Below are positions 3,625 through 49,618 of a stretch of DNA of 49,618 nt, piece by piece. Source of the DNA: SAR202 cluster bacterium (GTDB lineage: Bacteria; Chloroflexota; Dehalococcoidia; UBA3495); assembly GCA_009392775.1 (NCBI GenBank), contig VFFT01000119.1, positions 1-49,618 of the forward strand. Direction: 5' to 3'. The position numbers and the translations under genes were made by a program. The notes beneath the pieces were generated by a model that did no database searches, was not told where the DNA came from, and worked only from the letters and a program-made list of their open reading frames with translations. Each line of letters begins with the position of its first letter. Position 1 is the stretch's first letter.

Positions 3625-4052
3625 AGGCTATTAGTTACGAGACGACAGTTCCGATCTCCACTCTTAACTATTGGAATAGTCAGGATCAGTGGAAGATGGA
3701 TAAGCGTATTGCTGAGAACGAATCAGCTTTAAGAGAGCTTGATAGTGAGGTATCTATATCAAATGAGGTTCGAGAAAACCTTTTAAGAGGTCTTCGACTC
3801 ATTGGAGAAGCTGGTGAGGATGCTCTTCGTGACGACAAACTGAGATTTAGAGATAAAAAACAAGCTGCCGACGTTATGTTAGAAGGGTTGCGAGGGCAGT
3901 TGGAATTAGAAACAGCGAACCAAACAATGGAATTTCTTCGTGAGATAGCAAAAATAATCAGGGAAGAAGTTAAAGATGACGAAACCCTACGCAGACTCGC
4001 AGTCCGACTCACAGAACTCGGTAGATTATTCAATAATCGGGTCCCTGCTTGA
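3528..4052 (+). CDS. terS: Terminase small subunit (putative)
   Basis: 174 aa with a GTG start (AGAGG upstream). Residues about 15-50 form a helix-turn-helix (RERARELYLSGQTIEAISYE then PISTLNYW), as in many TerS proteins that recognise packaging sites; the rest is a charged helical segment suited to oligomerisation. It lies directly before and overlaps terL by 77 nt, the classic order. The call rests on HTH plus position. Confidence 0.8.
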   Translation: MAESDDKQKLTGTWPRETRERARELYLSGQTIEAISYETTVPISTLNYWNSQDQWKMDKRIAENESALRELDSEVSISNEVRENLLRGLRLIGEAGEDALRDDKLRFRDKKQAADVMLEGLRGQLELETANQTMEFLREIAKIIREEVKDDETLRRLAVRLTELGRLFNNRVPA

Positions 4053-5946
4053 TTTCGGGATTGATCCTGCAGAACAAATAGAATCAGGTGAGTTTGAAGA
4101 TGATCAATATGCTCTCTTTGAACAGAATCCTGTTGATATAGAAACATTTTTATATGGTGAGAATTATTTAAATCTCAATATAAGACTGTCTATTCCTCAA
4201 TTAGAGTTGGTAGATAACCTATCTAATATATTTGATCCACCTATTTACACAGAAGGTGTACTGATGGCGGGACAGGGTTCTGGAAAAGACACCTGCTCTA
4301 TCTTCATCAACCTTAGAATTATCTATTTATTGCATTGTCTTAGAAGTCCGCAACGATTTTTTAATATGGATACCAATAGCTTTATTGATTCCATTAACGT
4401 TGCTCCTAATGCTGACCTAGCAAAGAATATATATTTCAGTACTCTTGCTAATATTCTTCGTGCCGCTCCTTTATTTCAAGAAGGAACTCCTTTTTATATT
4501 CCTCACAAGATAACAGCTAACTTAGTTACATTTAATAAAAATATTCGATTGATTAGCGGTAATTCAGAGAATGAGGCATGGCAGGGATACACTCCAATAC
4601 TTATTGTTTTGGATGAAATTGATGCATTTAAGAGCGATCAGGAGCTTAGAAGGAGTAAAAGTCAGCGATCTATTGGTGCTGAAGGCGTATATGACACGGC
4701 AAAATCACTAGTTCAGTCTCGTTTTCCGGGTACTGGGAAGATAATTTCACTATCTTGGCCCCGTTTTAAGGGTTCTTTTATACAAAAAAGGTTCTTAACA
4801 GGACAAACTGAGAAGAGAACTTACGTTTCTTGTAAGCCTAGTGGCGAACCTTACGCTACATGGGACTTTAATCCTTCAAAAAAGAAAGAAGATTTCGAAG
4901 ATTTTTACGAAACTGATCCTGTTCTGGCACGAGCAAGGTTCGAATGTGACCCTCCATTTGCTAGAGACGCGTTCATTAAGGAAACAGATTCTGTACTTCT
5001 AGCATTTGATGCTGCTTTAGATCCCGTTACTGAGAAAGTAACTCACGTTGGTGCAAAGCCTATTCGTGAAGTTGGGATGATGGACAAGAAACATAAATAT
5101 TATATTCATGTTGATCTAGGTCTTAGACACTCTAATGCAGCTTTAGGTATTGCTCATAAAGAAGAAGACAGAATTGTTTTAGATTTAATACAAGCTTGGG
5201 TTCCTGAGCCTGAAAAAGACGTTCATTTTAAAGATATAGAGAATTTTATTCTCGATCTTAGGGATGAAGGATATAAAATCCTTAGTGTTACTTATGATAA
5301 CTATCAATCAGTAAGCTCTCTTCAAGAGCTACAAAGTAAAAACATTCCCGCAAAGTATAAATCAGTAACCAGAACTAGAGAGGCTTACGATACTTTTAAA
5401 GATTTAATTTATCAAAATAAGATAGATGGGTATTTCGATGAAGAAGTTATTGATGAGCTTTTAGGTTTAGATGTTGTTTACGGTGAGCGTGTTGAACCCC
5501 GCCCCGGAATGAAAAAAGACCGTGCTGATGCTGTTGTCGGGGCCATACATGGAGTTCTTCGTGAGAATTCTGTTGTCACTGGTTTGCGTGTTATGGGTAG
5601 TTTAGCTCCTATATATACGAACCCTGATGTGATTGCTAAAGAAGCTGAACAAAATAAAAATACCAACCTATATGACCCTAGAAAAGATTTCGGTGCGGAC
5701 TCTGTTAAGGCTCGTGTAGTCAGCAGTGTTCCTGATACTTGTACCCTATGTCAGAGGATCGGTGGTGTCGAATACTCCGATACAGCAGGCAATAGGCTAT
5801 TAGACTCTAGTCTAGCAGTCATAAAAGTGTGTATAATTTGCGGAACTAAATGGTCTTTAGATAACGAAGATTGGAAAATTATTAAACCGCCTGATGAAGA
5901 ATCTCTTCGTGAGGTAGCGGGAATATCTATAAATGGGAATTCTTGA
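3976..5946 (+). CDS. terL: Terminase large subunit
   Basis: 656 aa motor ATPase/nuclease that pumps DNA into the prohead. Walker A is MAGQGSGKDT near 97-106 and Walker B with the catalytic Glu is ILIVLDEID near 207-215. The RNase H-like nuclease half follows, with acidic motifs HVDLGLRHSN near 377, TYDNYQS near 438 and DRADAVVGA near 514. Unusual: the C-terminal about 70 residues carry two CxxC pairs (CTLCQR and CIICGTKW), a likely zinc ribbon. It overlaps terS upstream and portal downstream, so expression is coupled. Confidence 0.95.
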   Translation: MTKPYADSQSDSQNSVDYSIIGSLLDFGIDPAEQIESGEFEDDQYALFEQNPVDIETFLYGENYLNLNIRLSIPQLELVDNLSNIFDPPIYTEGVLMAGQGSGKDTCSIFINLRIIYLLHCLRSPQRFFNMDTNSFIDSINVAPNADLAKNIYFSTLANILRAAPLFQEGTPFYIPHKITANLVTFNKNIRLISGNSENEAWQGYTPILIVLDEIDAFKSDQELRRSKSQRSIGAEGVYDTAKSLVQSRFPGTGKIISLSWPRFKGSFIQKRFLTGQTEKRTYVSCKPSGEPYATWDFNPSKKKEDFEDFYETDPVLARARFECDPPFARDAFIKETDSVLLAFDAALDPVTEKVTHVGAKPIREVGMMDKKHKYYIHVDLGLRHSNAALGIAHKEEDRIVLDLIQAWVPEPEKDVHFKDIENFILDLRDEGYKILSVTYDNYQSVSSLQELQSKNIPAKYKSVTRTREAYDTFKDLIYQNKIDGYFDEEVIDELLGLDVVYGERVEPRPGMKKDRADAVVGAIHGVLRENSVVTGLRVMGSLAPIYTNPDVIAKEAEQNKNTNLYDPRKDFGADSVKARVVSSVPDTCTLCQRIGGVEYSDTAGNRLLDSSLAVIKVCIICGTKWSLDNEDWKIIKPPDEESLREVAGISINGNS

Positions 5947-7795
5947 TACATTAGCTAATACTTTCGGTGCTGGTCGTAATGGTGCAGGAAGCAGTTCTAT
6001 GCCCATGCCACAAGGTATGGAAAATTACTCTCGCATGCAGGGTGTTCTTGGAACATTAGACGAGATAGTTAAATCAGCGAACACTGCACAGAATGGAAAT
6101 TCTTCTGCTGGAAGAATGTCTCCTCTTGGATTAGATGCGATTATCCAAGACTGGGTTCGTCAACAGTTTATCTATCGGCGGTCTATCCTTCAGGATCTTT
6201 ATGTACTTTCTTATCAAGTTACAGAGATACGTTCTGTTGTGCTTGCTATACAAAGAGAAGTCTTTAGAAGAGGTTTTGGTACTTGGCAACAGAAATTTGT
6301 AGCTAAATGTCCTGAGTGTGGTAAAGAGACACAAGATGGCGACCAAGCTGATTGTGATGAGTGTTTTGTTTTTGAGATGAATGCAGAACAGGTCTATGAC
6401 AAAGGTCTAGATCAGATGGTTCTGAAAGATGTCAAAAGATTTAAACGTGATGCTGACGGTAAAAGAATTAGAACTGAGTTGACTATCCCTGATCGAAGCC
6501 AACAAAAAGGTTTTGAAGAGCTTACTAAAGATGCAAACAGCTTCCATCAGAACTTAATTGATGTTCTTCAAGAGTTTATGATGGATATACTCATCGCTGA
6601 TGATGGGTTCCTTCTTCTTAACAAAGAATATGAAGTAGATAGAAGAACTGGGGAAGTCACTACTTCTCGAGTATTTGAAATAACTCGACTACATCCCGCT
6701 CTTACTGAATATGATATCGATAGGAAGGATGGTCTTCCTGAAAGATCCCACTGGTTGTGTCCTCTACATAGAGAACAACAAACTCACACATCACCCGGAA
6801 GTTGTGATGTAGTTAATCAAGATGGATTCATTTGTAGTGCTACTCTTGTTCCCGCCATGTTCAGATATTACTGGCGTGGTCGTTATAGGTATTACACTGC
6901 TAATGAAATTATTCATGCATCGTACTTCAACCCATCAAAGACTTATGGATACAGTCCAGTACTGACAGTCTTTGAGAAGATTCTAGCTCTCGTTGGGGCT
7001 GACAGGACCCTTTACAGGTACTGGTATGAGCGCCGTATACCACCGGGATTGTTAATTACTTATACCGATGATCCAGAATCTCTAGAGACAGAGATTGAGC
7101 GGATTAAGATGCAGATGATGAATGATCCGAATACCTTCCCTTGGGTTGCAGCTTCGGCTAGATCCAACAGAGGTAAGACGGACTTCGTCAAGCTTGCCTA
7201 CACATTCCAAGAGCTTGACTATCTCCCTGTAAGACAGGAGATACGAGAGCGTGTTGCTATGTTGTGGGGAGTTACTCCGTTATTCACTGGAGATACTAGA
7301 GGTATCGGTGGTGGATTAGGTGGAGGTAAAGAGTCTGCTCAGACATCAATGCACGAAAATTTGGTTGAGTCTTATCAATCAGTAATAAATAAAATGGTTC
7401 TTCCTAAATTACTTGACGAACTAGGTATTACTGATTGGGAAGTAGTCTTAACTCCTCCTCGTGAGAAGAATGAAGCTGATGATCTAATGATTGAGAAGCA
7501 ACGTATTGATAATGCTGTAGCTATGATGCAGCTAGGATACGAAGCTGTTAAACAGAAAGGTCCAGACGTTAGATTTACATTTAAAAAATTACCTCAAGTT
7601 CCCGGTGCTCAACCCGGCATGCCCGGAGGTCCTGCTGGTCCTCCCGGTGGTATGCCCGGAATGCCTCCCGGTGGCGACCCCGCTGCGGCTCTTGCCGCTC
7701 CTCCAGCAGGAGGTGATGCTGGTGCTGCGTTGCCTGCCCCGCCTCCTATGTCAGAAGGAGGGGCTGGAGTTCCTGAAGGAGAGCCTAACGTATGA
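5933..7795 (+). CDS. Portal protein
   Basis: 620 aa. It follows terL with a 14-nt overlap. Portal-type segments include SYFNPSKTYGYSPV, an aromatic helix LYRYWYERRIPPG and a late TSMHENLVESYQSVINKMV helix. Two features are unusual: a Cys4 insertion at about 123-140 (CPECGKE ... CDECF), plausibly a zinc finger, and a C-terminal tail of about 60 residues made of Pro/Gly/Met/Ala with collagen-like G-P-P and G-M-P steps. The portal forms the dodecameric DNA channel; the tail may project into the capsid or neck. Confidence 0.88.
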   Translation: MGILDTLANTFGAGRNGAGSSSMPMPQGMENYSRMQGVLGTLDEIVKSANTAQNGNSSAGRMSPLGLDAIIQDWVRQQFIYRRSILQDLYVLSYQVTEIRSVVLAIQREVFRRGFGTWQQKFVAKCPECGKETQDGDQADCDECFVFEMNAEQVYDKGLDQMVLKDVKRFKRDADGKRIRTELTIPDRSQQKGFEELTKDANSFHQNLIDVLQEFMMDILIADDGFLLLNKEYEVDRRTGEVTTSRVFEITRLHPALTEYDIDRKDGLPERSHWLCPLHREQQTHTSPGSCDVVNQDGFICSATLVPAMFRYYWRGRYRYYTANEIIHASYFNPSKTYGYSPVLTVFEKILALVGADRTLYRYWYERRIPPGLLITYTDDPESLETEIERIKMQMMNDPNTFPWVAASARSNRGKTDFVKLAYTFQELDYLPVRQEIRERVAMLWGVTPLFTGDTRGIGGGLGGGKESAQTSMHENLVESYQSVINKMVLPKLLDELGITDWEVVLTPPREKNEADDLMIEKQRIDNAVAMMQLGYEAVKQKGPDVRFTFKKLPQVPGAQPGMPGGPAGPPGGMPGMPPGGDPAAALAAPPAGGDAGAALPAPPPMSEGGAGVPEGEPNV

Positions 7796-39987: not shown

Positions 39988-40075
39988 AAAGGATAGTTAC
40001 GGAGAAGGGCTTTAATCGGGTTGAAGACCTAGAACCCATGTGAGAGTCATGTCTCGGTTTCTCTCCGTAGCTATT

Positions 40076-40354
40076 TTAGTATTCGTGAGGAAATAGAATG
40101 GTGGTGGCTACCGCATCCTTGATGATCCAAAAGTCACCGTACACACCGAGTATACGTCCGCCCTGTCCCTTGCTGAGAGACTGTGCTGCTGCGTCGTTAT
40201 ATTCGCAGTCTGACCTCCAGTCCTCGTCTGTCAGTTCGGCTGACTTATCGCCCCAGTCCTTCCTTAGAAAGCGTGCCATAGCTTTTGACACATCCTTTGC
40301 GAATTTCTCATCCTGAGCTATTTTTGCGTTTACCTCTGCTGTTGTTACTATCAT
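40076..40354 (-). CDS. Conserved hypothetical protein, 92 aa
   Basis: Pattern: N-terminal VNAKIAQDEKFAKDVSKAMAR, then KDWGD, and a C-terminal GRILGVYGDFWIIKDA then TTILFPHEY. This matches a small family often called plasmid-related protein in Firmicutes and phages (DWGD ... IWIIT ... TVLFPxEY). Function unknown. The ATCAAATAAA leader precedes it. Confidence 0.7.
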   Translation of the reverse strand: MIVTTAEVNAKIAQDEKFAKDVSKAMARFLRKDWGDKSAELTDEDWRSDCEYNDAAAQSLSKGQGGRILGVYGDFWIIKDAVATTILFPHEY

Positions 40355-40382
40355 CTAATACCTTCCTTTATTTGATGTCTCT

Positions 40383-40411
40383 ATTATATATTAAATAATA
40401 CGTCCTGTCAA
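40383..40411 (-). promoter_or_regulatory. Phage promoter, 17-nt spacer class
   Basis: Minus-strand TTGACA, spacer 17, TATAAT. Confidence 0.83.
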
Positions 40412-40443
40412 CTCTTATATCTCGAGCTAGCAGGACCAGACCC

Positions 40444-40455
40444 TAAGGAAAAGAT
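40444..40455 (-). repeat. 12-bp intergenic box
   Basis: Plus strand TAAGGAAAAGAT. Confidence 0.75.
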
Positions 40456-40493
40456 GTACGGGAGGCTGCAGGAAACGCGGAGTATTTCGAGCA

Positions 40494-40542
40494 ATAAAAA
40501 ACCACCGACCTCATTGCTAGTAGTACTAGGGAGTATCGGTGG
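40494..40542 (-). terminator. Terminator with extended hairpin
   Basis: CCACCGA / TCGGTGG stem enclosing an inner CTAGTA/TACTAG stem; minus-strand T-run follows. Confidence 0.78.
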
Positions 40543-40640
40543 GGTCAAAGTCTATAGTAATAGACCTAAAGTATGTTTTTCTTGTTTTAATTTCCCCTTT
40601 CGGGCTTACGGTTTCACATTATTTCTCCTTATTATCCTTT

Positions 40641-40898
40641 TTAAAGTCTCCTAAACGGATCGTAATCTTTAAATCCTGCATATCCTGCAATCGGATTTAT
40701 TCCTTCTGAGCGGTTATCCCAGTATTCGTTTAATACGTCTTTGGGAGATACGCCTTTCTCAACTAGTAGATCTGATAGCTCCTGTACGGATTCCTTAGTT
40801 ATTTCGAAATCAATTTCTAAGTAACCGTGTCGCCCAGACCATTCTGCTAATGCTAGAACTTCCGTTCCGTTTAGCCACTTAGTGTCGAATTTATCCAT
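40641..40898 (-). CDS. Hypothetical protein, 85 aa
   Basis: Start set at ATG 40898, which overlaps the stop of the upstream 31-codon gene and has GGAGG upstream. Mixed helix and strand, Trp/Glu-rich. About 100 nt of non-coding sequence separates its stop from the terminator. Not recognised. Confidence 0.62.
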   Translation of the reverse strand: MDKFDTKWLNGTEVLALAEWSGRHGYLEIDFEITKESVQELSDLLVEKGVSPKDVLNEYWDNRSEGINPIAGYAGFKDYDPFRRL

Positions 40899-40986
40899 AG
40901 TATCCGCCTCCAAGTGTTATCCACATATTTTGTTCTTGTCCCAATTGGTTCAGAAACTTTCTAAACGCTTTCGTTATGCACTTCAT
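40891..40986 (-). CDS. Mini-protein, 31 aa
   Basis: Found by direct reading: ATG 40986 with AAGGAG 9 nt upstream, TAA 40891. Basic start (MKCITKAFRKFLNQ) and Gly-rich end. Its stop overlaps the next start (ATGGATAA), so it may act as a coupling leader or a real micro-protein. Confidence 0.55.
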   Translation of the reverse strand: MKCITKAFRKFLNQLGQEQNMWITLGGGYYG

Positions 40987-41014
40987 ATCTGTTATCTCCT
41001 TATTTGATATAACT

Positions 41015-41044
41015 ATCTTACCATATTAAATATACGTTTGTCAA
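41015..41044 (-). promoter_or_regulatory. Phage promoter, TTGACAAACGTA class
   Basis: Minus-strand TTGACAAACGTA, spacer 18, TGG TAAGAT. Confidence 0.75.
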
Positions 41045-41077
41045 CACCTATACATCCCGCAGCAGGACCGGAGGATG

Positions 41078-41089
41078 TAAGGAAAAGAT
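41078..41089 (-). repeat. 12-bp intergenic box
   Basis: Plus strand TAAGGAAAAGAT. Confidence 0.75.
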
Positions 41090-41125
41090 ACCCGGAGGTT
41101 GCGATCCTGCTAATCGCGGATACGG

Positions 41126-41148
41126 AAAAGCCCTTCGTGTGGAAGGGC
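41126..41148 (-). terminator. Probable terminator
   Basis: GCCCTTC-GTGTG-GAAGGGC hairpin; minus-strand T-run is short (four). Confidence 0.65.
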
Positions 41149-41213
41149 GTGGAAATGCTGGATATGTGTTTTAAGCTACTGCCAGCATTGCAGTGCTGTT
41201 TGTTTGGTCTGGA

Positions 41214-41414
41214 TTAGACCTGAGCGAAGGGGGTGAGGTGCTTTGGGCCTACGGTGACGTAGGTGTTCTGACACCTCTTGCAGGTCACCTTCTCCCACTC
41301 CTCTGTTGTCCTTGTCGGGGCGAGGTTCGGGTTTCCTGTGAACTGACTTCGGTTCGGGAACTTGGCTCCACAGCGAGCACTCCAGTCGTTTCCTGTATGG
41401 TGCATTACCTTCAT
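41214..41414 (-). CDS. Small zinc-binding protein, 66 aa
   Basis: CGAKFPN followed later by VTCKRCQNTY: the CGA...VTCxxC plan common in small actinobacterial and phage zinc proteins. Richer in G and C than its neighbours. Own promoter at 41444. Confidence 0.7.
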   Translation of the reverse strand: MKVMHHTGNDWSARCGAKFPNRSQFTGNPNLAPTRTTEEWEKVTCKRCQNTYVTVGPKHLTPFAQV

Positions 41415-41443
41415 TTAGTATCTCCTCTTTACTTGATAACCCT

Positions 41444-41471
41444 ATTATATACTATTGAGTACGAGCGTCAA
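41444..41471 (-). promoter_or_regulatory. Phage promoter, short-spacer variant
   Basis: Minus-strand TTGACG, spacer 16, TATAAT. Confidence 0.68.
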
Positions 41472-41482
41472 CTCAAAAAGGC

Positions 41483-41494
41483 TAAGGAAAAGAT
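41483..41494 (-). repeat. 12-bp intergenic box
   Basis: Plus strand TAAGGAAAAGAT, only 11 nt from the promoter. Confidence 0.75.
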
Positions 41495-41563
41495 ACCTCC
41501 TGCCCGAGCTTCGCTGCGGGGTCTGGGGATTTCTCCACAGATGGCGATTGGTTTTTTAGGCAA

Positions 41564-41594
41564 CAAAAAACCCTCACCACGTATGTAGTGAGGG
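41564..41594 (-). terminator. Rho-independent terminator
   Basis: CCCTCAC / GTGAGGG hairpin with six T on the minus strand. Confidence 0.87.
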
Positions 41595-41736
41595 ACAAAT
41601 AGGAGGGATCATCCGTCTTCGAGTCCTTGTTTTACGGATTTCTGACTCATACCCTTTATCCAACTCAGTGTTATTAATTAAGCTGTCGTACTATGTCACC
41701 ACCAACTCGATTCTTAGGATGGAGTCTTTTTTCTTC

Positions 41737-41904
41737 TTACTCAGGAAGTTGTTTAATATTTTTAATTTCGTGATCCTTTAATAGAAGATTGTATTCTTCT
41801 CTATAAAAATCTTTAATTAACTCTACAAAGTCTTCTTCCGTCTCGGCTTCCATACCGTGATGGTCAAAGTTTACTTCTATTTCGCACGCCCATTCTTTTA
41901 ACAT
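41737..41904 (-). CDS. Hypothetical protein, 55 aa
   Basis: Start set at ATG 41904 with GAGGTGA upstream; the longer frame begins in promoter sequence. Acidic helical protein (EDFVELIKDFYREEYNLL). Not recognised. Confidence 0.6.
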   Translation of the reverse strand: MLKEWACEIEVNFDHHGMEAETEEDFVELIKDFYREEYNLLLKDHEIKNIKQLPE

Positions 41905-41935
41905 CTTGTTCACCTCGTTTTTATTTGACAAGTCA

Positions 41936-41965
41936 ATCTTATCAAATTGGATATACCTTTGTCAA
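41936..41965 (-). promoter_or_regulatory. Phage promoter
   Basis: Minus-strand TTGACAAAGGTA, spacer 18, TGA TAAGAT. Lies directly after the previous gene's stop. Confidence 0.72.
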
Positions 41966-41968
41966 CTT

Positions 41969-42163
41969 TTACTGCACTTTCCTAAATCCGACTACTTCTT
42001 TAAGTTGATTTACTGTTTCTTGTAAATCTCGGATTGTAGCTTCGGTAGAGTTTTTGAAATGCTTATGCTGTAATGCTTTTCGCATATCTATTTCTGTTTG
42101 TAATGTTCTAATCACATTGATGACAGAAACGTTATCTTTGAAATTAAGTGTTACGGTTTTCAT
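41969..42163 (-). CDS. Hypothetical protein, 64 aa
   Basis: Start set at ATG 42163 (AAGGAG upstream). Beta start (MKTVTLNFKDNVSV) and a helical coiled-coil-like rest. Not recognised. Confidence 0.6.
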   Translation of the reverse strand: MKTVTLNFKDNVSVINVIRTLQTEIDMRKALQHKHFKNSTEATIRDLQETVNQLKEVVGFRKVQ

Positions 42164-42164
42164 A

Positions 42165-42254
42165 TTATTCTCCTTCACAGCAGTTTTGTTCTGGACATGC
42201 GTCACAATATTCGCAATGTCTGTCGTACAGTTCTAAGCAATAGTCGCAGTTCAT
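42165..42254 (-). CDS. Cys-rich micro-protein, 29 aa
   Basis: Found by direct reading: ATG 42254 directly after the upstream TAA, TAA 42165 one base before the next start. Sequence MNCDYCLELYDRHCEYC then DACPEQNCCEGE has seven Cys in 29 residues, compatible with one or two zinc ions. Confidence 0.55.
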   Translation of the reverse strand: MNCDYCLELYDRHCEYCDACPEQNCCEGE

Positions 42255-42404
42255 TTAGTTCACCTCTAGTAGTTTTGATTTATCATCCATGATATCTAGC
42301 AAATCGCTATCGCTCAGCATATCGAAATACTCTTGAGCTTTGTACTCACCAAGTTCCTCAATGCACTCTTCCCAGTAGTTCTCTATAAAAGTATCGAATT
42401 CCAT
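42255..42404 (-). CDS. Hypothetical protein, 49 aa
   Basis: Found by direct reading: ATG 42404 with AGAGAGG upstream, TAA 42255. Very acidic helical peptide (ENYWEECIEELGEYKAQEYF). First of a three-gene unit. Not recognised. Confidence 0.58.
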   Translation of the reverse strand: MEFDTFIENYWEECIEELGEYKAQEYFDMLSDSDLLDIMDDKSKLLEVN

Positions 42405-42434
42405 TTCTTGTGCCTCTCTTTATTTGATAAGTCT

Positions 42435-42464
42435 ATTCTATCATACTATATTTACGTTTGTCAA
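42435..42464 (-). promoter_or_regulatory. Phage promoter, TTGACAAACGTA class
   Basis: Minus-strand TTGACAAACGTA, spacer 18, TGA TAGAAT. Confidence 0.8.
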
Positions 42465-42496
42465 CATTGTGTTATGGCGACGGGAGCTACTGGGGG

Positions 42497-42508
42497 TAAG
42501 GAAAAGAT
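42497..42508 (-). repeat. 12-bp intergenic box
   Basis: Plus strand TAAGGAAAAGAT. Confidence 0.75.
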
Positions 42509-42544
42509 TACCGGGGGACCGCGAAACGCTGCGGGTTTACGGGA

Positions 42545-42581
42545 CAAAAAAATGAGGCTCCACCATTTCTAGTAGAGCCTC
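42545..42581 (-). terminator. Rho-independent terminator
   Basis: GAGGCTC / GAGCCTC hairpin and seven T on the minus strand. Confidence 0.87.
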
Positions 42582-42910
42582 TATCACACCCGCTGAAACA
42601 TCACTGACTAAGTTCACGGGATTGTCGGGTTTAAGGATGTACACTACATTGCAATCTTATGGCGAAACATCACAAGATCACTCTAATGACATTCAATGAA
42701 AGCAAGTTACTGCTAACGTATAACGTACCAAACAATATCAGTATCAGACTGCCACGACTATGAAAAGAATCTCATGTACTTAACGAGCTTACGCCTATCC
42801 CGAGTCAGTTCTATACCCTTGTGACTGAAATGATTATACCTTAAACAATTTCTTGTATTTCGGAATTGGATATCTGGCATATTGCTAATACACCAGATAC
42901 CCTGTCGGGA

Positions 42911-43402
42911 TTAGGCTGTCAGGTTTCCTGCAGGATTCATGTTTTTCGCCTCAACACATGTGTGACGATAGTTCCTCACGTAGAACTTTTCGAAATCGTG
43001 CCAGTGTTGACCATTCCATTCACCCTCAACAATTGGTGTAGTATCGCCATCTACGCCTTTACTCAAGATATCCCTAAATTGTTCGATAGTTATTTTCCTA
43101 CTTAAAACTTGATTATTTCCTTTAGTCCAAACACTTTTTCGATCTCTCATGATTTCCCAAACTTTCTTAGCAGCGTTTCTGTCTGCTTGTTTTCTGTCTG
43201 CTAGTTCTTGCTGTGCGTTTACAGTTTCAATGCTAACCACATCAAAGGTTTTGCCGATAAAACCTAATTCCTGCATGGCAAACTGGTATGCCTCAACTCT
43301 ACCTTTCAGCACTGCTGGTACATCCCTACCAGACGCTCGAATAGCGCTGAGATCATATTGCATCCTCTCGTTTATTTTCCTTGCGATTGTTTCGTTACTC
43401 AT
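42911..43402 (-). CDS. Hypothetical protein, 163 aa
   Basis: GGAAGGTAC ribosome site. Helical, charged protein; a basic middle (KQADRNAAKKVWEIMRDRKS) and a C-terminal HWHDFEKFYVRNYRHTC that could bind metal or nucleic acid. Not recognised. Confidence 0.65.
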   Translation of the reverse strand: MSNETIARKINERMQYDLSAIRASGRDVPAVLKGRVEAYQFAMQELGFIGKTFDVVSIETVNAQQELADRKQADRNAAKKVWEIMRDRKSVWTKGNNQVLSRKITIEQFRDILSKGVDGDTTPIVEGEWNGQHWHDFEKFYVRNYRHTCVEAKNMNPAGNLTA

Positions 43403-43435
43403 ATTTTCTAGTACCTTCCTTTATTTGGTAAGTCC

Positions 43436-43465
43436 ATTTTAGCACATTGAATTTTGGATTGTCAA
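43436..43465 (-). promoter_or_regulatory. Phage promoter
   Basis: Minus-strand TTGACA, spacer 18, TGC TAAAAT. Serves the 163-aa gene. Confidence 0.75.
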
Positions 43466-43518
43466 CGTTATATCTACCCTATTTTCCGCTCATTTGTTCT
43501 ATTTGTATTGAATTACCT

Positions 43519-43530
43519 TAAGGGAAAGCT
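43519..43530. repeat. 12-bp intergenic box, GCT variant
   Basis: TAAGGGAAAGCT followed by GA; located between divergent genes, 53 nt from the minus-strand promoter. Identical through 14 bp to the copy at 44845. Confidence 0.7.
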
Positions 43531-43583
43531 GAGCTAGGGACCGGATAGGCTGCTCGCGAGGTGGTGGTGTTTGAGATATCCTA

Positions 43584-43868
43584 ATGTGGATGGAAAATGA
43601 GATAGGCGTGCTTATAGCTAAATTAGACGGTCTAACGTGGGGTTTTCGTATTGAAAAACTATCTGAGCGTGGCTGTGCGCCCGTTTGGGAGGTTTTTTAT
43701 ATCTCTCCGATAGATAAGGTATGGAGGAGGGAGAAAAACGATAGTCTGATTACCGCTCTAGAGGATTCTGTTCTTTTAATCGAAAGACAGCGTGATGGGA
43801 TTGTGACCGCATTCGATACACAATCCCTCGACGAAAATTTGATGATTGAAACAAGTCACAGCATCTAA
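43584..43868 (+). CDS. Plus-strand hypothetical protein, 94 aa
   Basis: A rare plus-strand gene in a minus-strand region. Residues 1-70 look like a genuine globular domain (LDGLTWGFRIEKLSERGC then APVWEVFYISPIDKVW). The last 93 nt overlap an antisense 54-codon gene. The ribosome site is weak (GAGGTGG about 20 nt upstream). Not recognised. Confidence 0.5.
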   Translation: MWMENEIGVLIAKLDGLTWGFRIEKLSERGCAPVWEVFYISPIDKVWRREKNDSLITALEDSVLLIERQRDGIVTAFDTQSLDENLMIETSHSI

Positions 43869-43940
43869 TGCGTTTTGTGTAGGTTTATCTACAATGACAG
43901 CTTCACCATCTAATAAATCTCTAAGATCATCCCAAGACAT
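43776..43940 (-). CDS. Hypothetical protein, 54 aa
   Basis: Found by direct reading: ATG 43940 with AAGGA upstream, 4 nt after the stop of the previous gene; TAA 43776. Starts MSWDDLRDLLDGEAVIVDKP and contains CIECGHNP with an earlier Cys, a possible metal site. Its end is antisense to the plus-strand gene at 43584. Confidence 0.58.
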   Translation of the reverse strand: MSWDDLRDLLDGEAVIVDKPTQNALDAVTCFNHQIFVEGLCIECGHNPITLSFD

Positions 43941-43944
43941 TTCC

Positions 43945-44169
43945 TTATCCAATTCGGAAACTACTCGTGCGATTGATTACACCAATCCAGTGATTGATCT
44001 TATTGCCGAGGATTCTTTGTTCCTCGTCGTATTCTGCTAGCTTATCCTTGCAATATCGCAAATACTCTACGCTAGTCATTTCTGTTTTCTCCTTTTGTAT
44101 GTCCCATACAACTCCACCAGATAAATGTATTTCTCTTGTTGCTTGTTCCTTCTCGTTGTGATCAGTCAT
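43945..44169 (-). CDS. Hypothetical protein, 74 aa
   Basis: AAGGAGATAT ribosome site. Helical, charged (SVEYLRYCKDKLAEYDEEQR). Not recognised. Confidence 0.6.
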   Translation of the reverse strand: MTDHNEKEQATREIHLSGGVVWDIQKEKTEMTSVEYLRYCKDKLAEYDEEQRILGNKINHWIGVINRTSSFRIG

Positions 44170-44215
44170 TTTATATCTCCTTTTTTATTACTGATTTATT
44201 TTTTTCTAATTGGGA

Positions 44216-44266
44216 AGCATGGTGGGAAGGAGTCAAATTGAGAGATAGGAAACCACCCACCATGCT
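44216..44266 (-). repeat. Perfect 11-bp inverted repeat
   Basis: AGCATGGTGGG at 44216-44226 and CCCACCATGCT at 44256-44266, with a 29-nt purine-rich (plus) loop. It lies between two co-oriented minus-strand genes, just after the stop of 44275-44463. No T-run, so an attenuating or processing hairpin is as likely as a terminator. Confidence 0.7.
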
Positions 44267-44274
44267 AGGTACGA

Positions 44275-44463
44275 TTATATTGGGTCTAATTGATCGTTGA
44301 AATATTCAGGCATTGCCGACATGGCGTTTAAAGCTTTATAGTCGTCTGCTTCCTGTTCAACCAAAAAGTATCCTTTCAAGTTTTCAATTTCTACTACTTT
44401 GGATATTTCGATCTCCTTGATAGTGCCGTCATCATTGTAGACTGTCATTATTATTGCATCCAT
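44275..44463 (-). CDS. Hypothetical protein, 62 aa
   Basis: AAGGAG ribosome site. Short beta-rich acidic protein. First gene after the promoter at 44498. Not recognised. Confidence 0.6.
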   Translation of the reverse strand: MDAIIMTVYNDDGTIKEIEISKVVEIENLKGYFLVEQEADDYKALNAMSAMPEYFNDQLDPI

Positions 44464-44497
44464 ATTTTTTTATCTCGTCTCCTTATTTGTTAATCCC

Positions 44498-44528
44498 ATT
44501 ATAGCACACGCTCTTAATAGTCTGTCAA
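44498..44528 (-). promoter_or_regulatory. Phage promoter
   Basis: Minus-strand TTGACA, spacer 19, TGC TATAAT. Confidence 0.82.
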
Positions 44529-44542
44529 TACCCTCGTAGGGA

Positions 44543-44761
44543 TTACTGAATCCCGTAGGATTTAGCTTGTTTGGTCATTGCTTGTTGCAAACCAGCATCT
44601 GCTTTGATTCCACCCATCCAACCGCTGATATCCATCTCGGATACCCTATATGCAAAGAATGGCTCAGACGCTGTCATTGACGCTATTGCTGAAGTAGCTA
44701 TGTCAAAGATGCCGTATAGTTCCTCGATTCCTTCTATGTTCTCGTCGTAGTAGTTTTCCAT
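44543..44761 (-). CDS. Hypothetical protein, 72 aa
   Basis: GGGGAGATAC ribosome site. Acidic N-terminus and a helical middle (IFDIATSAIASMTAS). Not recognised. Confidence 0.6.
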   Translation of the reverse strand: MENYYDENIEGIEELYGIFDIATSAIASMTASEPFFAYRVSEMDISGWMGGIKADAGLQQAMTKQAKSYGIQ

Positions 44762-44795
44762 TTTTGTATCTCCCCTTGTTTGTTGTTGAGTCCAT

Positions 44796-44823
44796 TTTAT
44801 AGTACGGGATATAGGATCGTCAA
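44796..44823 (-). promoter_or_regulatory. Phage promoter, short-spacer variant
   Basis: Minus-strand TTGACG, spacer 16, TATAAA. Confidence 0.6.
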
Positions 44824-44844
44824 CGTTATATAGGATCAGGACCT

Positions 44845-44856
44845 TAAGGGAAAGCT
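44845..44856. repeat. 12-bp intergenic box, GCT variant
   Basis: TAAGGGAAAGCT followed by GA, between divergent genes. A GC-rich near-perfect hairpin (CCCTGCTGCCGC with GCGGCTGCGGGG, 44861-44887) follows on the plus side. Confidence 0.7.
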
Positions 44857-44904
44857 GACCCTGCTGCCGCGTGGCGGCTGCGGGGATGTTTTTGTTACGA
44901 TAGG

Positions 44905-45372
44905 TTGATGACTAGGAAACATCACTACATATTGACTGATTACCCTGATGGCTGGACGTTGGGACGCTGTAAATGGTGTAAACGTATAGAGCCTTTTCGC
45001 CAATACCCTCTTCACAATTCTTATAATCAGGTTATTGAAGCTACATTAGCTGAGAAAAGAAAATTCTTATCTTCAATCGGAATTACTATTCATTCTTCTA
45101 GATGGCACGATTCTGAAAAACTAGAACTAATTAATTCAGTAAAAAGAATTGGAATTAATCAAACTGCGAAAAAGTTTGGTCTTTCGCCTTCTACTGTCGG
45201 GAAATGGTCAAAAGGTTTGTCGCCTAATAAATCATATTCCGATAAATACTCGAAAGAATTTAAATTGAGATGTGTTGATGAATACGAAAGAAAACAGAAT
45301 TTCTATGGCGTGGCTAAAGAAATGGGAATTCCTAGATCTACGTTACAGCGTTGGGTGAAGGTCGGAATTTAA
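44905..45372 (+). CDS. Double helix-turn-helix protein, 155 aa
   Basis: Plus-strand gene between divergent/convergent minus genes. N-terminal CKWCKR suggests a partial zinc site. Two transposase/Psq-style HTH units follow: NQTAKKFGLSPSTVGKWSKG near 93 and NFYGVAKEMGIPRSTLQRWV near 132. No catalytic domain, so more likely a DNA-binding regulator than a transposase. Its TAA overlaps the TAA of the opposing gene. Confidence 0.7.
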   Translation: MMTRKHHYILTDYPDGWTLGRCKWCKRIEPFRQYPLHNSYNQVIEATLAEKRKFLSSIGITIHSSRWHDSEKLELINSVKRIGINQTAKKFGLSPSTVGKWSKGLSPNKSYSDKYSKEFKLRCVDEYERKQNFYGVAKEMGIPRSTLQRWVKVGI

Positions 45373-45695
45373 CTTGCGGCATCTTCAATGACTATTCTGT
45401 CATTTCCTGTTAAATTCTTGTTTTGTTGAGTTGCTGATTTAAGTTTATTTAAATCAGTGTTGGTTTCTGTTAATTCTCTTACAGTAGTTGATTCGTCTCG
45501 AATTACTCTAGTGTCTTTTCTAATTACAATCGTCTCTTCTTTTAGAATAATTGTTTCTTCTAACAGTCTTTCAGATACTTTAAATATTCTTACACTAATG
45601 TCGTAAATCATTTTGGTAAACCACAATAACCACAAATTAATTCCGACGAGAATTACGCTCGACAGTATGATTAATATTATGACTATTGTGTTCAT
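45369..45695 (-). CDS. Membrane-anchored coiled-coil protein, 108 aa
   Basis: One N-terminal transmembrane helix (about 3-28, VIILIILSSVILVGINLWLL) then a long helix with regular Glu/Arg/Ile spacing (ERLLEETIILKEETIVIRKD). A TATACT lies just upstream of the start, so the transcript may be nearly leaderless. Possible spanin or holin-like accessory, unproven. Confidence 0.6.
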   Translation of the reverse strand: MNTIVIILIILSSVILVGINLWLLWFTKMIYDISVRIFKVSERLLEETIILKEETIVIRKDTRVIRDESTTVRELTETNTDLNKLKSATQQNKNLTGNDRIVIEDAAS

Positions 45696-45715
45696 ACTCT
45701 TAGTATAGCGTAATC

Positions 45716-45940
45716 CTACAATCCACGGCTGGCCCAGTAATTGATTCGGATTTTTCGCAATGCTCTAGTAATGTTAGGCGCATAGCCATTTCCATTTCTG
45801 TTCGGAAACTTGATAATAAATCCTAGTTCTTTGTTTCCTTCTAATGTTCCTGCTAGATGGTTTCCGATGTAAACCTTATTTCCTTGTATCCGCTCATATC
45901 TTAGAGCGGATATTGCATTTGTTGGTACTGATATTTCCAT
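45716..45940 (-). CDS. Hypothetical protein, 74 aa
   Basis: Beta-rich basic protein (VYIGNHLAGTLEGN, GFIIKFPNRNG) ending in a basic helix. 1 nt after the upstream stop. Not recognised. Confidence 0.6.
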   Translation of the reverse strand: MEISVPTNAISALRYERIQGNKVYIGNHLAGTLEGNKELGFIIKFPNRNGNGYAPNITRALRKIRINYWASRGL

Positions 45941-45941
45941 T

Positions 45942-46268
45942 CTATGACCTACCCATTTCCCTAAGCTGGTTTGTGTAGGCTGCTTGTTCAGTCTGATCCA
46001 TTGACCACAATGGTGTATATCGCTGTACCAATGGTGTCGCTGTAGTGATGTCGTAGTCTTGGTTGAAGATGTCTGCCAATTCTTCTAAATGAGCGTCTTC
46101 TTCAGTAACGTGAGCATTGGTACTAAACTTTAGTGTGAAATTGGAATTCAGTAGATCGATTCCGTCAATGTCGATGTCGAGAATGAATTCTTCAATCGCG
46201 CTATTCATAGCTTCGATCAATTCGCCTTCTATGCTCTCGTAGATTCCGTAGTAGTTATCGTTGTTCAT
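45942..46268 (-). CDS. Hypothetical protein, 108 aa
   Basis: AAGGAGAGAC ribosome site after an ATCAAATA leader. Strongly acidic. First gene of the unit led by the promoter at 46299. Not recognised. Confidence 0.6.
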   Translation of the reverse strand: MNNDNYYGIYESIEGELIEAMNSAIEEFILDIDIDGIDLLNSNFTLKFSTNAHVTEEDAHLEELADIFNQDYDITTATPLVQRYTPLWSMDQTEQAAYTNQLREMGRS

Positions 46269-46298
46269 TTTGTCTCTCCTTCTGTATTTGATAAGACC

Positions 46299-46327
46299 AT
46301 TATATAGAAGAAAATATAAAATGTCAA
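46299..46327 (-). promoter_or_regulatory. Phage promoter, 17-nt spacer class
   Basis: Minus-strand TTGACA, spacer 17, TATAAT. Confidence 0.82.
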
Positions 46328-46332
46328 CTCTT

Positions 46333-46554
46333 TTATAACATTCTTACTAATTCCTTGATCGCTACTTTCTCACCATCTCCGAACATCACAATCGCACACA
46401 ATCCGCAGACTGGATGCTTTTTACCATTGCGACGTCTTTGTACTCCGATCAGTCTGGTGAATTGATATTCCATTCCGCATATTTCACAATCGCTATAATC
46501 TTCGGCTGGTTTGGATACGCTATTCGGTTCAGGTTTATATAATCTGTAATCCAT
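46333..46554 (-). CDS. Zinc-finger protein, 73 aa
   Basis: CEICGMEY and CGLCAIVM, separated by a basic loop RRRNGKKHPV, form a four-Cys zinc site suited to nucleic-acid binding. Follows the 57-aa gene by 4 nt. Confidence 0.65.
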   Translation of the reverse strand: MDYRLYKPEPNSVSKPAEDYSDCEICGMEYQFTRLIGVQRRRNGKKHPVCGLCAIVMFGDGEKVAIKELVRML

Positions 46555-46558
46555 ATTT

Positions 46559-46732
46559 CTATCCTTGTTTCTTTAAAGATAGTTTTTTGAAATGTTTGAT
46601 GTTATCTAATTCGAATACATCGGTATAGTCGATTTGGTCTTGAGTAATGTGACCGTCGTATTCCATTTCGAATTCCACCACAACTGTAACCTTGGTACTT
46701 TTGTTCTTGTTTCTTTTGAATATTCCTAGCAT
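46559..46732 (-). CDS. Hypothetical protein, 57 aa
   Basis: Found by direct reading: ATG 46732 with AGGAGAG upstream, TAG 46559. Starts MLGIFKRNKNKSTKVTVVVE; basic head, beta middle, basic tail. Not recognised. Confidence 0.62.
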   Translation of the reverse strand: MLGIFKRNKNKSTKVTVVVEFEMEYDGHITQDQIDYTDVFELDNIKHFKKLSLKKQG

Positions 46733-46762
46733 TTTGTTCTCTCCTATTTATTTGATACTGTA

Positions 46763-46791
46763 ATTATATAGAAAAGAATTCTATTTGTCAA
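46763..46791 (-). promoter_or_regulatory. Phage promoter, 17-nt spacer class
   Basis: Minus-strand TTGACA, spacer 17, TATAAT. Confidence 0.82.
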
Positions 46792-46816
46792 CATCCTATT
46801 GATAATTCCCTACCAA

Positions 46817-46844
46817 CAAAAAAACCAGCCTTGTGTTGGCTGGT
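46817..46844 (-). terminator. Rho-independent terminator
   Basis: ACCAGCC / GGCTGGT hairpin with a minus-strand T-run; ends the 107-aa gene. Confidence 0.87.
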
Positions 46845-46869
46845 CTTTAAGTTTCGATGTATTTGTCGA

Positions 46870-47193
46870 TTAGGCTAGCATTATGACCTTTATGCCTTGA
46901 TAGTCTATGTAGTGTGGCAGATCTGCTAATACTGAATCCTTATCGAAATCGATTCCGAGAAGGAAGTAGCCATCTATTAAACCTTGCTGTACTTCGTCAA
47001 TGCTCATTCCATTCTCATCAGCTAGTCTAGCTACTTCCCAATAAATAGCCTGCTTCCTTGTGAAATGTGTTTTCCAATTTGAAAGATCCCATTTCATTTT
47101 CTCAGTGCCGAATACTTCTGCTGCAACTTCGGAACCTAACTTCTCCTCAATAACTGCTTCGCTCAATATGTTCTCCGCGTTGATCTCTATCAT
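46870..47193 (-). CDS. Hypothetical protein, 107 aa
   Basis: Start set at ATG 47193 because GGGAG is 8 nt upstream; ATG 47199 would leave only 2 nt. Helical protein with Trp and a C-terminal beta strand. Not recognised. Confidence 0.6.
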   Translation of the reverse strand: MIEINAENILSEAVIEEKLGSEVAAEVFGTEKMKWDLSNWKTHFTRKQAIYWEVARLADENGMSIDEVQQGLIDGYFLLGIDFDKDSVLADLPHYIDYQGIKVIMLA

Positions 47194-47222
47194 TCTCATG
47201 TCTCCCTTTTTTTGATATCCTA

Positions 47223-47251
47223 ATTATATCAAAGAAAATACGAGATGTCAA
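47223..47251 (-). promoter_or_regulatory. Phage promoter, 17-nt spacer class
   Basis: Minus-strand TTGACA, spacer 17, TGA TATAAT. Confidence 0.82.
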
Positions 47252-47274
47252 CACCTATTTCCATGACTAGAGAT

Positions 47275-47394
47275 TGTCAAACTTGTATCGGGGTTGATGG
47301 TTTTGAAGGAGAATGCGGAGCGGGCTGCTGCCCCGCACCCTCAAAGGAGTTGTGCTCCTTGTCAACCGGAGTGAATGACAAATATTGAACACGA
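47275..47394 (-). ncRNA. Candidate small structured RNA, about 120 nt
   Basis: Lies between the promoter at 47400 and the next promoter at 47223 and has no reading frame of note. On the minus strand: AAGGAG / CTCCTT and GCGGG / CCCGC hairpins inside an outer GGTTGA / TCAACC stem. GC-rich compared with its surroundings. The AAGGAG strand is hidden in a stem. Confidence 0.45.
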
Positions 47395-47399
47395 CTAAA

Positions 47400-47430
47400 A
47401 GTATATCGGATCAACGCTAGTTTTTGTCAA
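47400..47430 (-). promoter_or_regulatory. Phage promoter at the end of a gene
   Basis: Minus-strand TTGACA, spacer 19, TATACT; overlaps the stop codon of the 121-aa gene. Nothing but the candidate small RNA is immediately downstream. Confidence 0.7.
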
Positions 47431-47792
47431 CCTTCAAACAGTATGTCAGCGACAGCCTTGTTGATGTGTGGTTTAACGCTAAGGTTAGGCGTGATTTCTA
47501 GCGACTCACATGTTGAGTTGTAGACAGCACGCTTTAACTTTAGCTTCTGTCTCTTAGTTAGATTATTCCAGTTAAAGACAAGTTTTTGCCCATTGGCTGG
47601 CTCTATGTCCATGATAGTTATATCGTGGAACTGTTCTTTAAGTCTTGTGTATGACCTTACGTCTACTGTGACACGGTAGTCTTGACTTGGCATATTGTCG
47701 TACTCATGTGGACAGCATGCTGTGTCTGGTGGGAAGTAGAGACGTATGTTGGTCTTATGTACTATGTCATTACGTTGATTTTTATTGCCCAT
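47427..47792 (-). CDS. Hypothetical protein, 121 aa
   Basis: Start set at ATG 47792, overlapping the upstream stop (ATGGGCAATAA) with GAGGA upstream. Basic, with a Lys-rich segment (LTKRQKLKLKRAVYN). Not recognised. Confidence 0.6.
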   Translation of the reverse strand: MGNKNQRNDIVHKTNIRLYFPPDTACCPHEYDNMPSQDYRVTVDVRSYTRLKEQFHDITIMDIEPANGQKLVFNWNNLTKRQKLKLKRAVYNSTCESLEITPNLSVKPHINKAVADILFEG

Positions 47793-48246
47793 TGTCCTCA
47801 TCATCTACATCGATCATATGTTCTATTGAATCGATGTCCTCTTCCTTAAACGTCATATCCACAGGCGTATCAGCAGGCGCTGGTGGGAAGTGACCTTCTA
47901 ATGGATCGATTTCCATGAGCATGAAATCCCACATCCAGCCAGAGTAATGGTTGTATGTTACACGCCTAAACCTTTGCGGTATGCCGTCACATGTTTTTGT
48001 TTCCATCCCTAACACTATCGCACCCACAGGCACGGTGGTCAACCTATCGTCAGGCATGCAGTAGTCACCAAAGCGACGTAGCGTGAATATGCCATGTGCT
48101 GGTTGTGTCCACACCTTGAAGTTGCCTGTGTCGGAGTCTGATACGCTGGGCATTCCAGTAGTGTCGGCATGTGTTGGGCGTGATATAACGAACACCGATG
48201 CGATTAATATGAGTGTGATTGTTCCAATACTGATGAATTTTTTCAT
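47782..48246 (-). CDS. Exported protein, 154 aa
   Basis: Start set at ATG 48246 (AAGGATA upstream). Residues 1-29 form a clear Sec signal peptide: MKKF, a hydrophobic core, then a likely cleavage site after THA. The mature part is beta-rich with a Cys pair (DYC ... TKTC), Trp/Tyr residues and an acidic C-terminus, in outline like an SH3-type wall- or surface-acting domain. Could alter the host surface; unproven. Confidence 0.68.
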   Translation of the reverse strand: MKKFISIGTITLILIASVFVISRPTHADTTGMPSVSDSDTGNFKVWTQPAHGIFTLRRFGDYCMPDDRLTTVPVGAIVLGMETKTCDGIPQRFRRVTYNHYSGWMWDFMLMEIDPLEGHFPPAPADTPVDMTFKEEDIDSIEHMIDVDDEDNGQ

Positions 48247-48267
48247 TATGCTATCCTTGTCATGAGT

Positions 48268-48342
48268 CTGATACGTGGTATAGATCACCTCTCTTAGCAA
48301 CGACCAAAGATTAGCCAATGCTTTGATCGCTCTACGTATCAG
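48268..48342. repeat. 9-bp inverted repeat upstream of the exported-protein gene
   Basis: CTGATACGT at 48268-48276 and ACGTATCAG at 48334-48342, 57 nt apart, directly upstream of the exported-protein gene. Could be an operator pair or an RNA stem. Confidence 0.5.
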
Positions 48343-48374
48343 GCTCGTTATATGTCAGTACGCTCAAAAACAAT

Positions 48375-48401
48375 GGTGCTTTCAACTTCGTTGGCTCTAT
48401 C
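48375..48401. repeat. Possible decayed array unit
   Basis: GGTGCTTTC, 9 nt, GGCTCTATC: resembles box B and box A of the main array with the same 9-nt spacing, but lies about 140 nt outside it and 7 nt out of phase with it. May be a degenerate end unit, or chance. Confidence 0.3.
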
Positions 48402-48524
48402 AGGGCTGGTAGGCTACTCGGATCGGAGTCTGGTGTCGGACCATATTCTGATTATGATCACGTAACCAACGACCCTCCCCCCATAGCTCATACCCCCTTA
48501 TTAGTAGTACGTACTGTATAAATA

Positions 48525-49618
48525 CTTGCTCTTCTTTTGGCGTGATTCACTTCTTTCTTCTGTTGCTTTTCGGGTCCGTGGTTCACTTATCGCATTTGTT
48601 GCTTTCAAAAGGAGTGGGTCACTTCGTCTGTGTGGTACTTTCGCATTAAATGGTTCACTTTGCCTATTTGTTGCTTTTCACGTTACTGGTTCACTTGTCA
48701 CCTTTGTTGCTTTCCAAGAATGTGGTTCACTTATCGCTGATGTTACTATTATCTTTTGTGGTTCACTTCCTTTCCATGTTACTTTTTCCACGAATGGTTC
48801 ACTTCCCGGTCATGTTGCTTTTGTCTTTAATGGTTCACTCGATCACTCTGTTACTTTCTAGTCTGGTGGCTCACTTCTTCTCATTGTTACTTTCTGGGAT
48901 AGTGATTCACTTAAGGGCTTTGTTGCTTTCTTAATAAATGGTTCACTTTCACAATATGTTGCTTTCTGAATGCTCTGGTTCACTTCTCCCTCGTGTTGCT
49001 TTTAGCTTCAATGGCTCACTTGCTCGCGCTGTTACTTTTGTTCACCCTGATTCACTTTTCCTCACTGTTGCTTTCTCATATGGTGGTTCACTTCTTCTGA
49101 ATGTTGCTTTCTTGGCTAATGGTTCACTTGGCTGACTTGTTGCTTTTCTTTCTTTGGGTTCACTTAATATTTCAGTTACTTTTCCCTTCGATGGTTCACT
49201 CAAAAATGATGTTGCTCTCTTATGTACTGGTTCACTTCCTCAAGATGGTGCTTTTTGGAAATTGGGTTCACTTCCTCCTTCTGTTACTTTTCGGTACGAC
49301 GGTTCACTTCTTTTCCATGTTACTTTCTTTCCTTCCGGTTCACTTAATCCACGCGTTGCTTTCCTGCGTTTGGGTTCACTTGAACTGTTTGTTACTTTCT
49401 AATCTGGTGGTTCACTTCCTCCTTGTGTTGCTTTTCCGACAAATGGTTCGTTCTTAGACGATGGTACGTTCTCAAATAGATTGACTCACTCATAAAACCT
49501 GTTGCTTTCATCTCTGTTGGTTCACTTCAAGCTCCTGTTGCTATTTCATTCGGTGGTTCATTCGTTAAAAATGGTACTCTCTGGAGGTATGATTCACTTC
49601 ATTGACCTGTTACTGTCT
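48525..49618. repeat. TIGR-like guide RNA array, 36-nt units (runs off the window)
   Basis: Thirty units start at 48544, 48580 and every 36 nt after. Unit plan: box A GGTTCACTT (18 of 30 exact), 9 variable nt, box B GTTRCTTTY (22 of 30 match), 9 variable nt. The base before each box is nearly always T, so 8 positions per spacer truly vary. Of 29 intervals, 27 are exactly 36; two are 37 and 38 (units 12-13 and 26-27). A partial box B precedes unit 1 at 48525. The plan fits TIGR arrays, processed to 36-nt dual-spacer RNAs for Nop-domain Tas proteins. Sense strand unproven; the minus strand (AAGTGAACC, GAAAGCAAC) is favoured because only it has the GA steps of box C/D-like K-turns. Confidence 0.85.

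Follow-up and report, generated by a model that had tools for sequence, protein, structure and literature searches.

The window analysed here, a 49,618-nucleotide (nt) stretch of DNA (positions 1 to 49,618 of contig VFFT01000119.1, forward strand, GenBank assembly GCA_009392775.1, filed under SAR202 cluster bacterium), very probably carries at its right end a new member of the tandem interspaced guide RNA (TIGR) systems, a minus-strand array at 48543..49618 predicted to guide a Tas protein to DNA. This reading is based on the anatomy of the array, the strand on which its repeats read, the relatedness of these repeats to those of arrays lying beside tas genes, and the presence of both an array and a Tas protein in one relative of the virus.

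Anatomy of the array

Read on the minus strand, the array consists of 29 complete units and one partial unit, each complete unit running from a 10-nt edge repeat (AAGTGAACCA) through an 8-nt spacer A and a 10-nt loop repeat (RAAAGYAACA) to an 8-nt spacer B. Thirty chained edge repeats bound the 29 full units, all of which (29/29) contain a 10-nt edge and a 10-nt loop with no more than two mismatches each to the consensus. Two 8-nt spacers were found in 27/29 units, and every spacer is unique (58/58), as a preliminary description of the sequence had stated for its variable segments. The 'strict' 36-nt period of thirty units claimed in the same description holds for 27 of the 29 complete units, the remaining two measuring 37 nt (edge at 48985) and 38 nt (edge at 49491), while the thirtieth unit is the partial one. 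Across the 27 regular units, information content was 1.0–2.0 bits in each edge and loop column and 0.05–0.40 bits in the spacer columns. The tandem periodicity itself is real: identity at lag 36 (252-nt stretches) peaked at 0.635 in the array versus a window mean of 0.291 (standard deviation 0.051), with the other lags tested (34–40) peaking at ≤0.43 in the window, and a two-box motif (≤3 mismatches) had 29 occurrences in the window, all but one inside the array, compared with a mean of 0.25 and a maximum of 2 in 100 shuffles.

Several details nevertheless had to be revised. The start of the array moves from 48525 to 48543, where the 3'-most edge repeat (AAGTGAATCA, 48543..48552, minus strand) is of full length and has no regular unit after it. 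The proposed 9+9+9+9 division of the unit is better replaced by 10+8+10+8, because the base preceding each box is also conserved, and the boxes originally given, GGTTCACTT and GTTRCTTTY, represent the reversed strand of the edge and loop repeats above. At the opposite end, a partial first unit (49600..49618, minus strand), made up of a loop repeat (GACAGTAACA) at the window edge and a spacer B (GGTCAATG), precedes the first complete edge; the array therefore extends 5' (rightwards) off the window, as had been stated. In several units on this right side (edges at 49563, 49491, 49453 and 49381) the repeats have one or two substitutions per unit. A test of the window for box C/D small RNAs found no Rfam family at its gathering score, an absence that is not decisive.

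Strand and comparison with known systems

TIGR arrays have been defined by two distinct alternating repeats of 8–12 nt (PMC12045711, section 4); their units measure 36 nt, their spacers are short, constant in length (usually 9 nt, with 16 nt per guide in SpTIGR; section 6) and different in every unit, and arrays are described in the same paper as most often holding 5 to 15 guides. The Salicola phage CGphi29 is named there (section 4) as an example of a TasH system. We located its array at about 15.35–15.76 kb of NC_020844, directly after a 309-aa open reading frame (ORF) whose translation equals PDB chain 21kl_A over the aligned stretches and which, judged by this sequence match, is the protein of the solved TasH structures. 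The CGphi29 SpTIGR and the window array share a 36-nt period, a 10-nt edge and loop, 8-nt spacers and a tailed-virus setting. Their edges are similar (AAGCGAGCCA in CGphi29), whereas the loop of CGphi29, AAGACAACCA, differs from RAAAGYAACA, and tasH adjoins its array in CGphi29, whereas no HNH-Nop gene was seen in the window. As the CGphi29 repeats resemble the reverse complement of the boxes in the preliminary description, the minus strand was set as the reading strand, and the same strand follows from the finding that the window repeats score well under models of Tas-adjacent arrays solely in this orientation. The association of strand and tas was surveyed in 36 viral loci with relatives of the CGphi29 TasH and in the best 80 of 138 loci with TasA-like relatives, a set that includes some near-duplicates. 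An edge-pattern finder chained arrays in 30/36 and 68/80 of these loci, and in all 98 chained loci (98/98) the nearest array lay on the tas strand, at ≤500 bp from tas in 96/98; the 18 loci without a chained array include three with detached or diverged arrays.

Phage TasA systems, represented by three viral genomes (G003, G010 and G011), resemble the window in their loop grammar (RANAGTANCA), 36-nt period and long arrays, and G003 belongs to the same virus group. They differ in their edges, which are mostly GAATGAATCA as opposed to AAGTGAACCA, and their arrays are situated 7.5–10 kb from tas instead of beside it, with no Tas seen in the window for comparison. TIGR-TasR (PDB 9MTY), as presented in PMC12045711 (sections 6 and 8), is unlike the window, having a RuvC nuclease, repeats that begin with UG and end with CCA, and 9-nt spacers. 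IS110/IS621 recombinases, in the account given by the same paper, have a DEDD catalytic domain and a single bridge RNA for each element, without a tandem array; the Tas profiles detected no IS110-like (DEDD plus Nop-like) gene in the window. Arrays of clustered regularly interspaced short palindromic repeats (CRISPR) likewise alternate repeats with unique spacers, but have a single direct repeat of about 25–36 nt and spacers of similar size, whereas the window alternates two short repeats and has spacers of 8 nt, and CRISPR had been rightly excluded at the outset.

A related virus with both array and Tas

Judged by its terminase large subunit and portal genes (3976..7795, plus strand; PHROGs), the window contig is a tailed virus. 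The window portal has many homologues, a few carrying a Tara source tag, which makes a marine origin likely. Nearest-gene and single-portal searches of viral contigs returned no relatives of the window virus, a portal profile search of GTDB genomes gave no match, and window positions 30000–49618 had no match among phage records at the DNA level. The portal profile search of viral contigs yielded nine loci, among them G003 (IMGVR_UViG_3300009108_000002, 141,341 bp), which has terminase and portal genes 62% and 66% identical to those of the window, in the same order, and shares about 16 genes with window positions 2.5–30 kb in nearly the same order.

G003 carries 36-nt arrays at about 74.3–76.6 kb, with repeats GAATGAATCA / GA.AGTA.CA and unit steps of 36 but also of 35 and larger breaks, and a 366-aa Tas-like ORF (86547–87647) on the same strand as the array, about 10 kb away. 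A profile of this Tas family matched TasR at E 2.7e-22. The G003 protein is of solo-Nop type; its only Pfam match at E ≤ 0.01 was Transposase_20, and it had no HNH or RuvC match there. By motif count, G003 has about 43 units and G010 has 55, the same motif also matching outside the arrays (4 and 2 times).

Among other features of the window, a 178-aa ORF located 3' of the array (47782..48318, minus strand) is 41% identical to an ORF of G008, another of the portal-found records, and had no Pfam and no Tas-profile match; it is a flanking virus gene and not a Tas. Two window segments, 34493–34777 and 3232–3624, both align by tblastn to one place in G003 (about 19.9–20.2 kb), suggesting a paralogous pair, and positions 13448–14920 hold a tRNA nucleotidyltransferase-like gene (PHROG, E 9e-39), with no tRNA gene found in the window. 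The longer portal homologues P0182, P0189 and P0239 (894–925 aa) match PF07591 and/or PF14890, which we take to be intein-type domains, and the portal gene of this virus group may thus host inteins.

Survey of viral records by repeat pattern

The exact plus-strand two-edge pattern had no match in viral contigs. A degenerate two-edge DNA pattern, derived by generalising the repeats of the window and of G003 and estimated to match the viral collection by chance hardly ever, found 53 stretches in 47 records. Tas (E ≤ 0.001) was encoded in 41/47 of these, and in 37/43 after leaving out four genomes already known from Tas searches (G003, G010, G012 and G013); the six records without Tas are fragments of 4.0–30.8 kb. 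As a control, we took 23 records that matched a single edge-loop pair and showed no array in the sequence retrieved (whole records in 20 cases, parts of records in 3); Tas was found in 0/23 of them, most being shorter than the test records. The identification of the array as TIGR, proposed from the letters alone, is thus supported by the CGphi29 layout, the repeat grammar of Tas-adjacent arrays, the relative with array and Tas, and the frequency of Tas among the pattern records.

In GTDB genomes the pattern occurred in one contig (Ammoniphilus resinae NZ_JAGGKT010000004.1), whose Tas match is split over two short open frames (87 and 41 aa) and may be broken or partial. A short viral contig (IMGVR_UViG_3300020198_000590, 4009 bp) has repeats GAAAGTAACA / GAGTGAACCA, close to those of the window, and no Tas.

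Effector type and alternative explanations

A number of results weigh against a TIGR array served by TasA. No Tas ORF was found in the six frames of the window with profiles of 121 TasH-family, 30 TasA-like and 13 close sequences; the latter two profiles, and a 19-sequence TasH profile, were able to recover the G003 Tas. The refuting condition of the preliminary description, a full genome with no Nop-domain protein near the array, concerns a flank that lies beyond the window, and in the relative G003 a Nop protein is present. Near the 3' end of the array, a simple minus-strand scan found no terminator-like hairpin with a T-run, and the fold of 48320–48560, after the array, had a z of −1.64, with no terminator evident; a terminator is typical after TIGR arrays but not obligatory. 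Tas was matched in just 1/9 portal-found viral records (the other eight being fragments of 20–105 kb), G008 (105 kb) has no TIGR array, its one period-36 stretch being weak (0.48) and of a different kind, and none of the genes in the relatives' tas-array region was matched in the window. The shortness of the control records and the partial array check of 3/23 also belong here, as do two properties of the repeats. The edge AAGTGAACCA is of TasH type: the TasH model was the better one for 28/30 window edges, broader models concur (−4.2 for TasH vs −10.7 for TasA), and the edge consensus of three TasH loci (L036, L040 and L057) is the same as in the window; the repeats by themselves do not decide between TasA and TasH. 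Moreover, both window repeats begin with RA and end with CA, but box C is unequal (CCA in the edge, ACA in the loop), whereas edge and loop boxes of TIGR arrays normally covary, making the mixed signature unusual. Edge positions 4 and 7 are pair-like, the commonest combination per locus (n = 55) being C-G in 40, T-A in 12 and others in 3; by unit, C-G or T-A accounted for 782/1070, the rest being mainly A-A (127), T-G (58) and C-A (50), and the window edges have T-A in 25/30. An array served by a nuclease-bearing TasH (HNH-Nop), with its targets cut, is nonetheless an unlikely explanation, and TasH would equally be an improbable effector if a TIGR system is taken as given. The window loops are closer to those of G003, G010 and G011 than to TasH loops in 29/29 units, the broader TasA model also fits them better (−9.8 vs −15.0 for TasH), and the sole Tas-bearing relative of the virus group is solo-Nop. 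On the strength of the loops and of this relative, the window system is probably of TasA type, and we regard TasA with reasonable confidence as its effector, given a TIGR system.

The missing Tas could also mean that the array is an orphan, perhaps borrowing a Tas from a co-infecting element, or decaying and inactive, in line with the repeat substitutions of the right-side units and the six pattern records without Tas. We consider this improbable: most window repeats are intact, the spacers all differ, the Tas-less records are fragments, the distance between tas and array in relatives reaches 10 kb or more, and the 5' flank of the window array is beyond the window. Tandem arrays of binding sites are common in phages and plasmids, and the repeats might in principle be protein-bound DNA elements (iterons, centromere or packaging sites) with no guide RNA. 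That two different boxes alternate around unique spacers of near-constant length, that a strand-specific repeat grammar is common to the window and Tas-adjacent arrays, and that pattern and Tas occur together in most pattern records makes this explanation very improbable. Least credible of all are repeats of a protein-coding gene, for which it can be said that 36 is divisible by three and that the array includes plus-strand ORFs of 94, 111 and 118 codons. Stops occur in all six frames of the array (6 to 37 per frame; no open stretch exceeds 118 codons), two indels shift the frame, and the G003 units are spaced by steps other than 36; the preliminary description had discarded coding repeats as well.

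Arrays detached from tas

In the three TasA genomes compared above, the array is downstream of tas on the same strand, at about 10.0 kb in G003, 8.8–9.2 kb in G010 and 7.5 kb in G011, and no array closer to tas was detected in any of them. The genes between tas and array are partly common to the three and include a dCMP deaminase and a C5 DNA methylase, identified by Pfam in G010, and a micrococcal-type nuclease and Hsp20, identified by Pfam in G003 (one genome per gene, with counterparts in the other two judged by eye). Directly upstream of tas, on the same strand in all three genomes, is a helix-turn-helix (HTH)/zinc-ribbon protein (L072:17743-18633, L221:17395-18288 and L223:11034-11687; 49–66% identical), possibly a functional partner of TasA by analogy with TasParB, the likened partner in the 2025 TIGR-Tas paper (PMC12045711). 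A small HNH/endonuclease VII-like ORF (Pfam match below cut-off) was observed just upstream of the G003 and G010 arrays (L072:7149-7481 and L221:7920-8240; 71–74% identical); it was not found in G011 and has no similarity to SpTasH.

Across the 41 records with both pattern and Tas, the pattern match nearest to tas was within 1.5 kb in 33 and farther away in 8, including G003 and G010. When the 8–10 kb around tas were inspected in the remaining six, arrays were present in G020, G041 (weak) and G053, and no period-36 array was detected within the 9–10 kb fetched around tas in G034, G047 and G057. In these last three (IMG/VR 3300009130_000050, 3300021475_000001 and 3300037424_001256) array units were noticed 21–61 kb from tas. 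For the discovery paper, flanks of 5 kb were taken to each side of tas genes (PMC12045711, section 24), a step that arrays 7.5–10 kb away would have escaped, and no title or abstract on detached TIGR arrays was found in the open-licence literature searched. We tentatively propose, as a possibility that falls somewhat short of even, a detached TIGR branch in which a very long array and a solo-Nop TasA lie 7.5–10 kb (three genomes) or more apart, a partly conserved module stands in between (dCMP deaminase, C5 DNA methyltransferase, micrococcal-type nuclease, among others), and a conserved HTH/zinc-ribbon gene adjoins tasA. The window would contribute to it guides with a TasH-like edge and a TasA-like loop, whose unequal boxes would each be read by one half of the Tas dimer.

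Proposed mechanism and targets

By analogy with known systems, the array transcript would be cleaved to yield about 30 guide RNAs of 36 nt with two spacers each. From TIGR-Tas biochemistry as described in PMC12045711, processing is expected inside the edge repeat, a Tas dimer would sit on the edge and loop repeats, and spacers A and B would each pair with a different strand of one double-stranded DNA site. As effector we predict a solo-Nop TasA of about 365 aa that lacks a nuclease domain. Its gene is expected on the minus strand beyond the right edge of the window, either just past the array or some 7.5–10 kb further, as in the three relatives. Such a protein would bind and sharply bend its target DNA and not cut it.

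Possible self-targets were searched with the geometry 5'-A-(0 to 2)-revcomp(B)-3', derived from PMC12045711 (sections 6 and 7), using 27/29 window units (the two with odd spacers dropped) against the window and against G003 and G008, and the G003 and G010 arrays against their own contigs. No self-target was identified in any of these sets, best-match counts being near those of shuffled pairings; the largest excess was seen for G010 against itself (5 units at two mismatches vs 2.4 in the control, with none better). This speaks against self-regulation, and the likely targets are then other mobile elements or the host. Our preferred reading is that the array may serve interference with other mobile elements.

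Discussion

TIGR-Tas systems were described in 2025, and their natural targets, role and array evolution remain questions. The window locus brings in a group of viruses whose arrays hold about 30 guides or more and, in relatives, lie far from the effector, which suggests searching for arrays by repeat pattern and not around tas genes. Long arrays also provide many spacer pairs per virus, making guide targets testable from matched host and virus genomes of the same samples. If the detached branch is true, TIGR arrays may be more widespread than known, and used at a distance.
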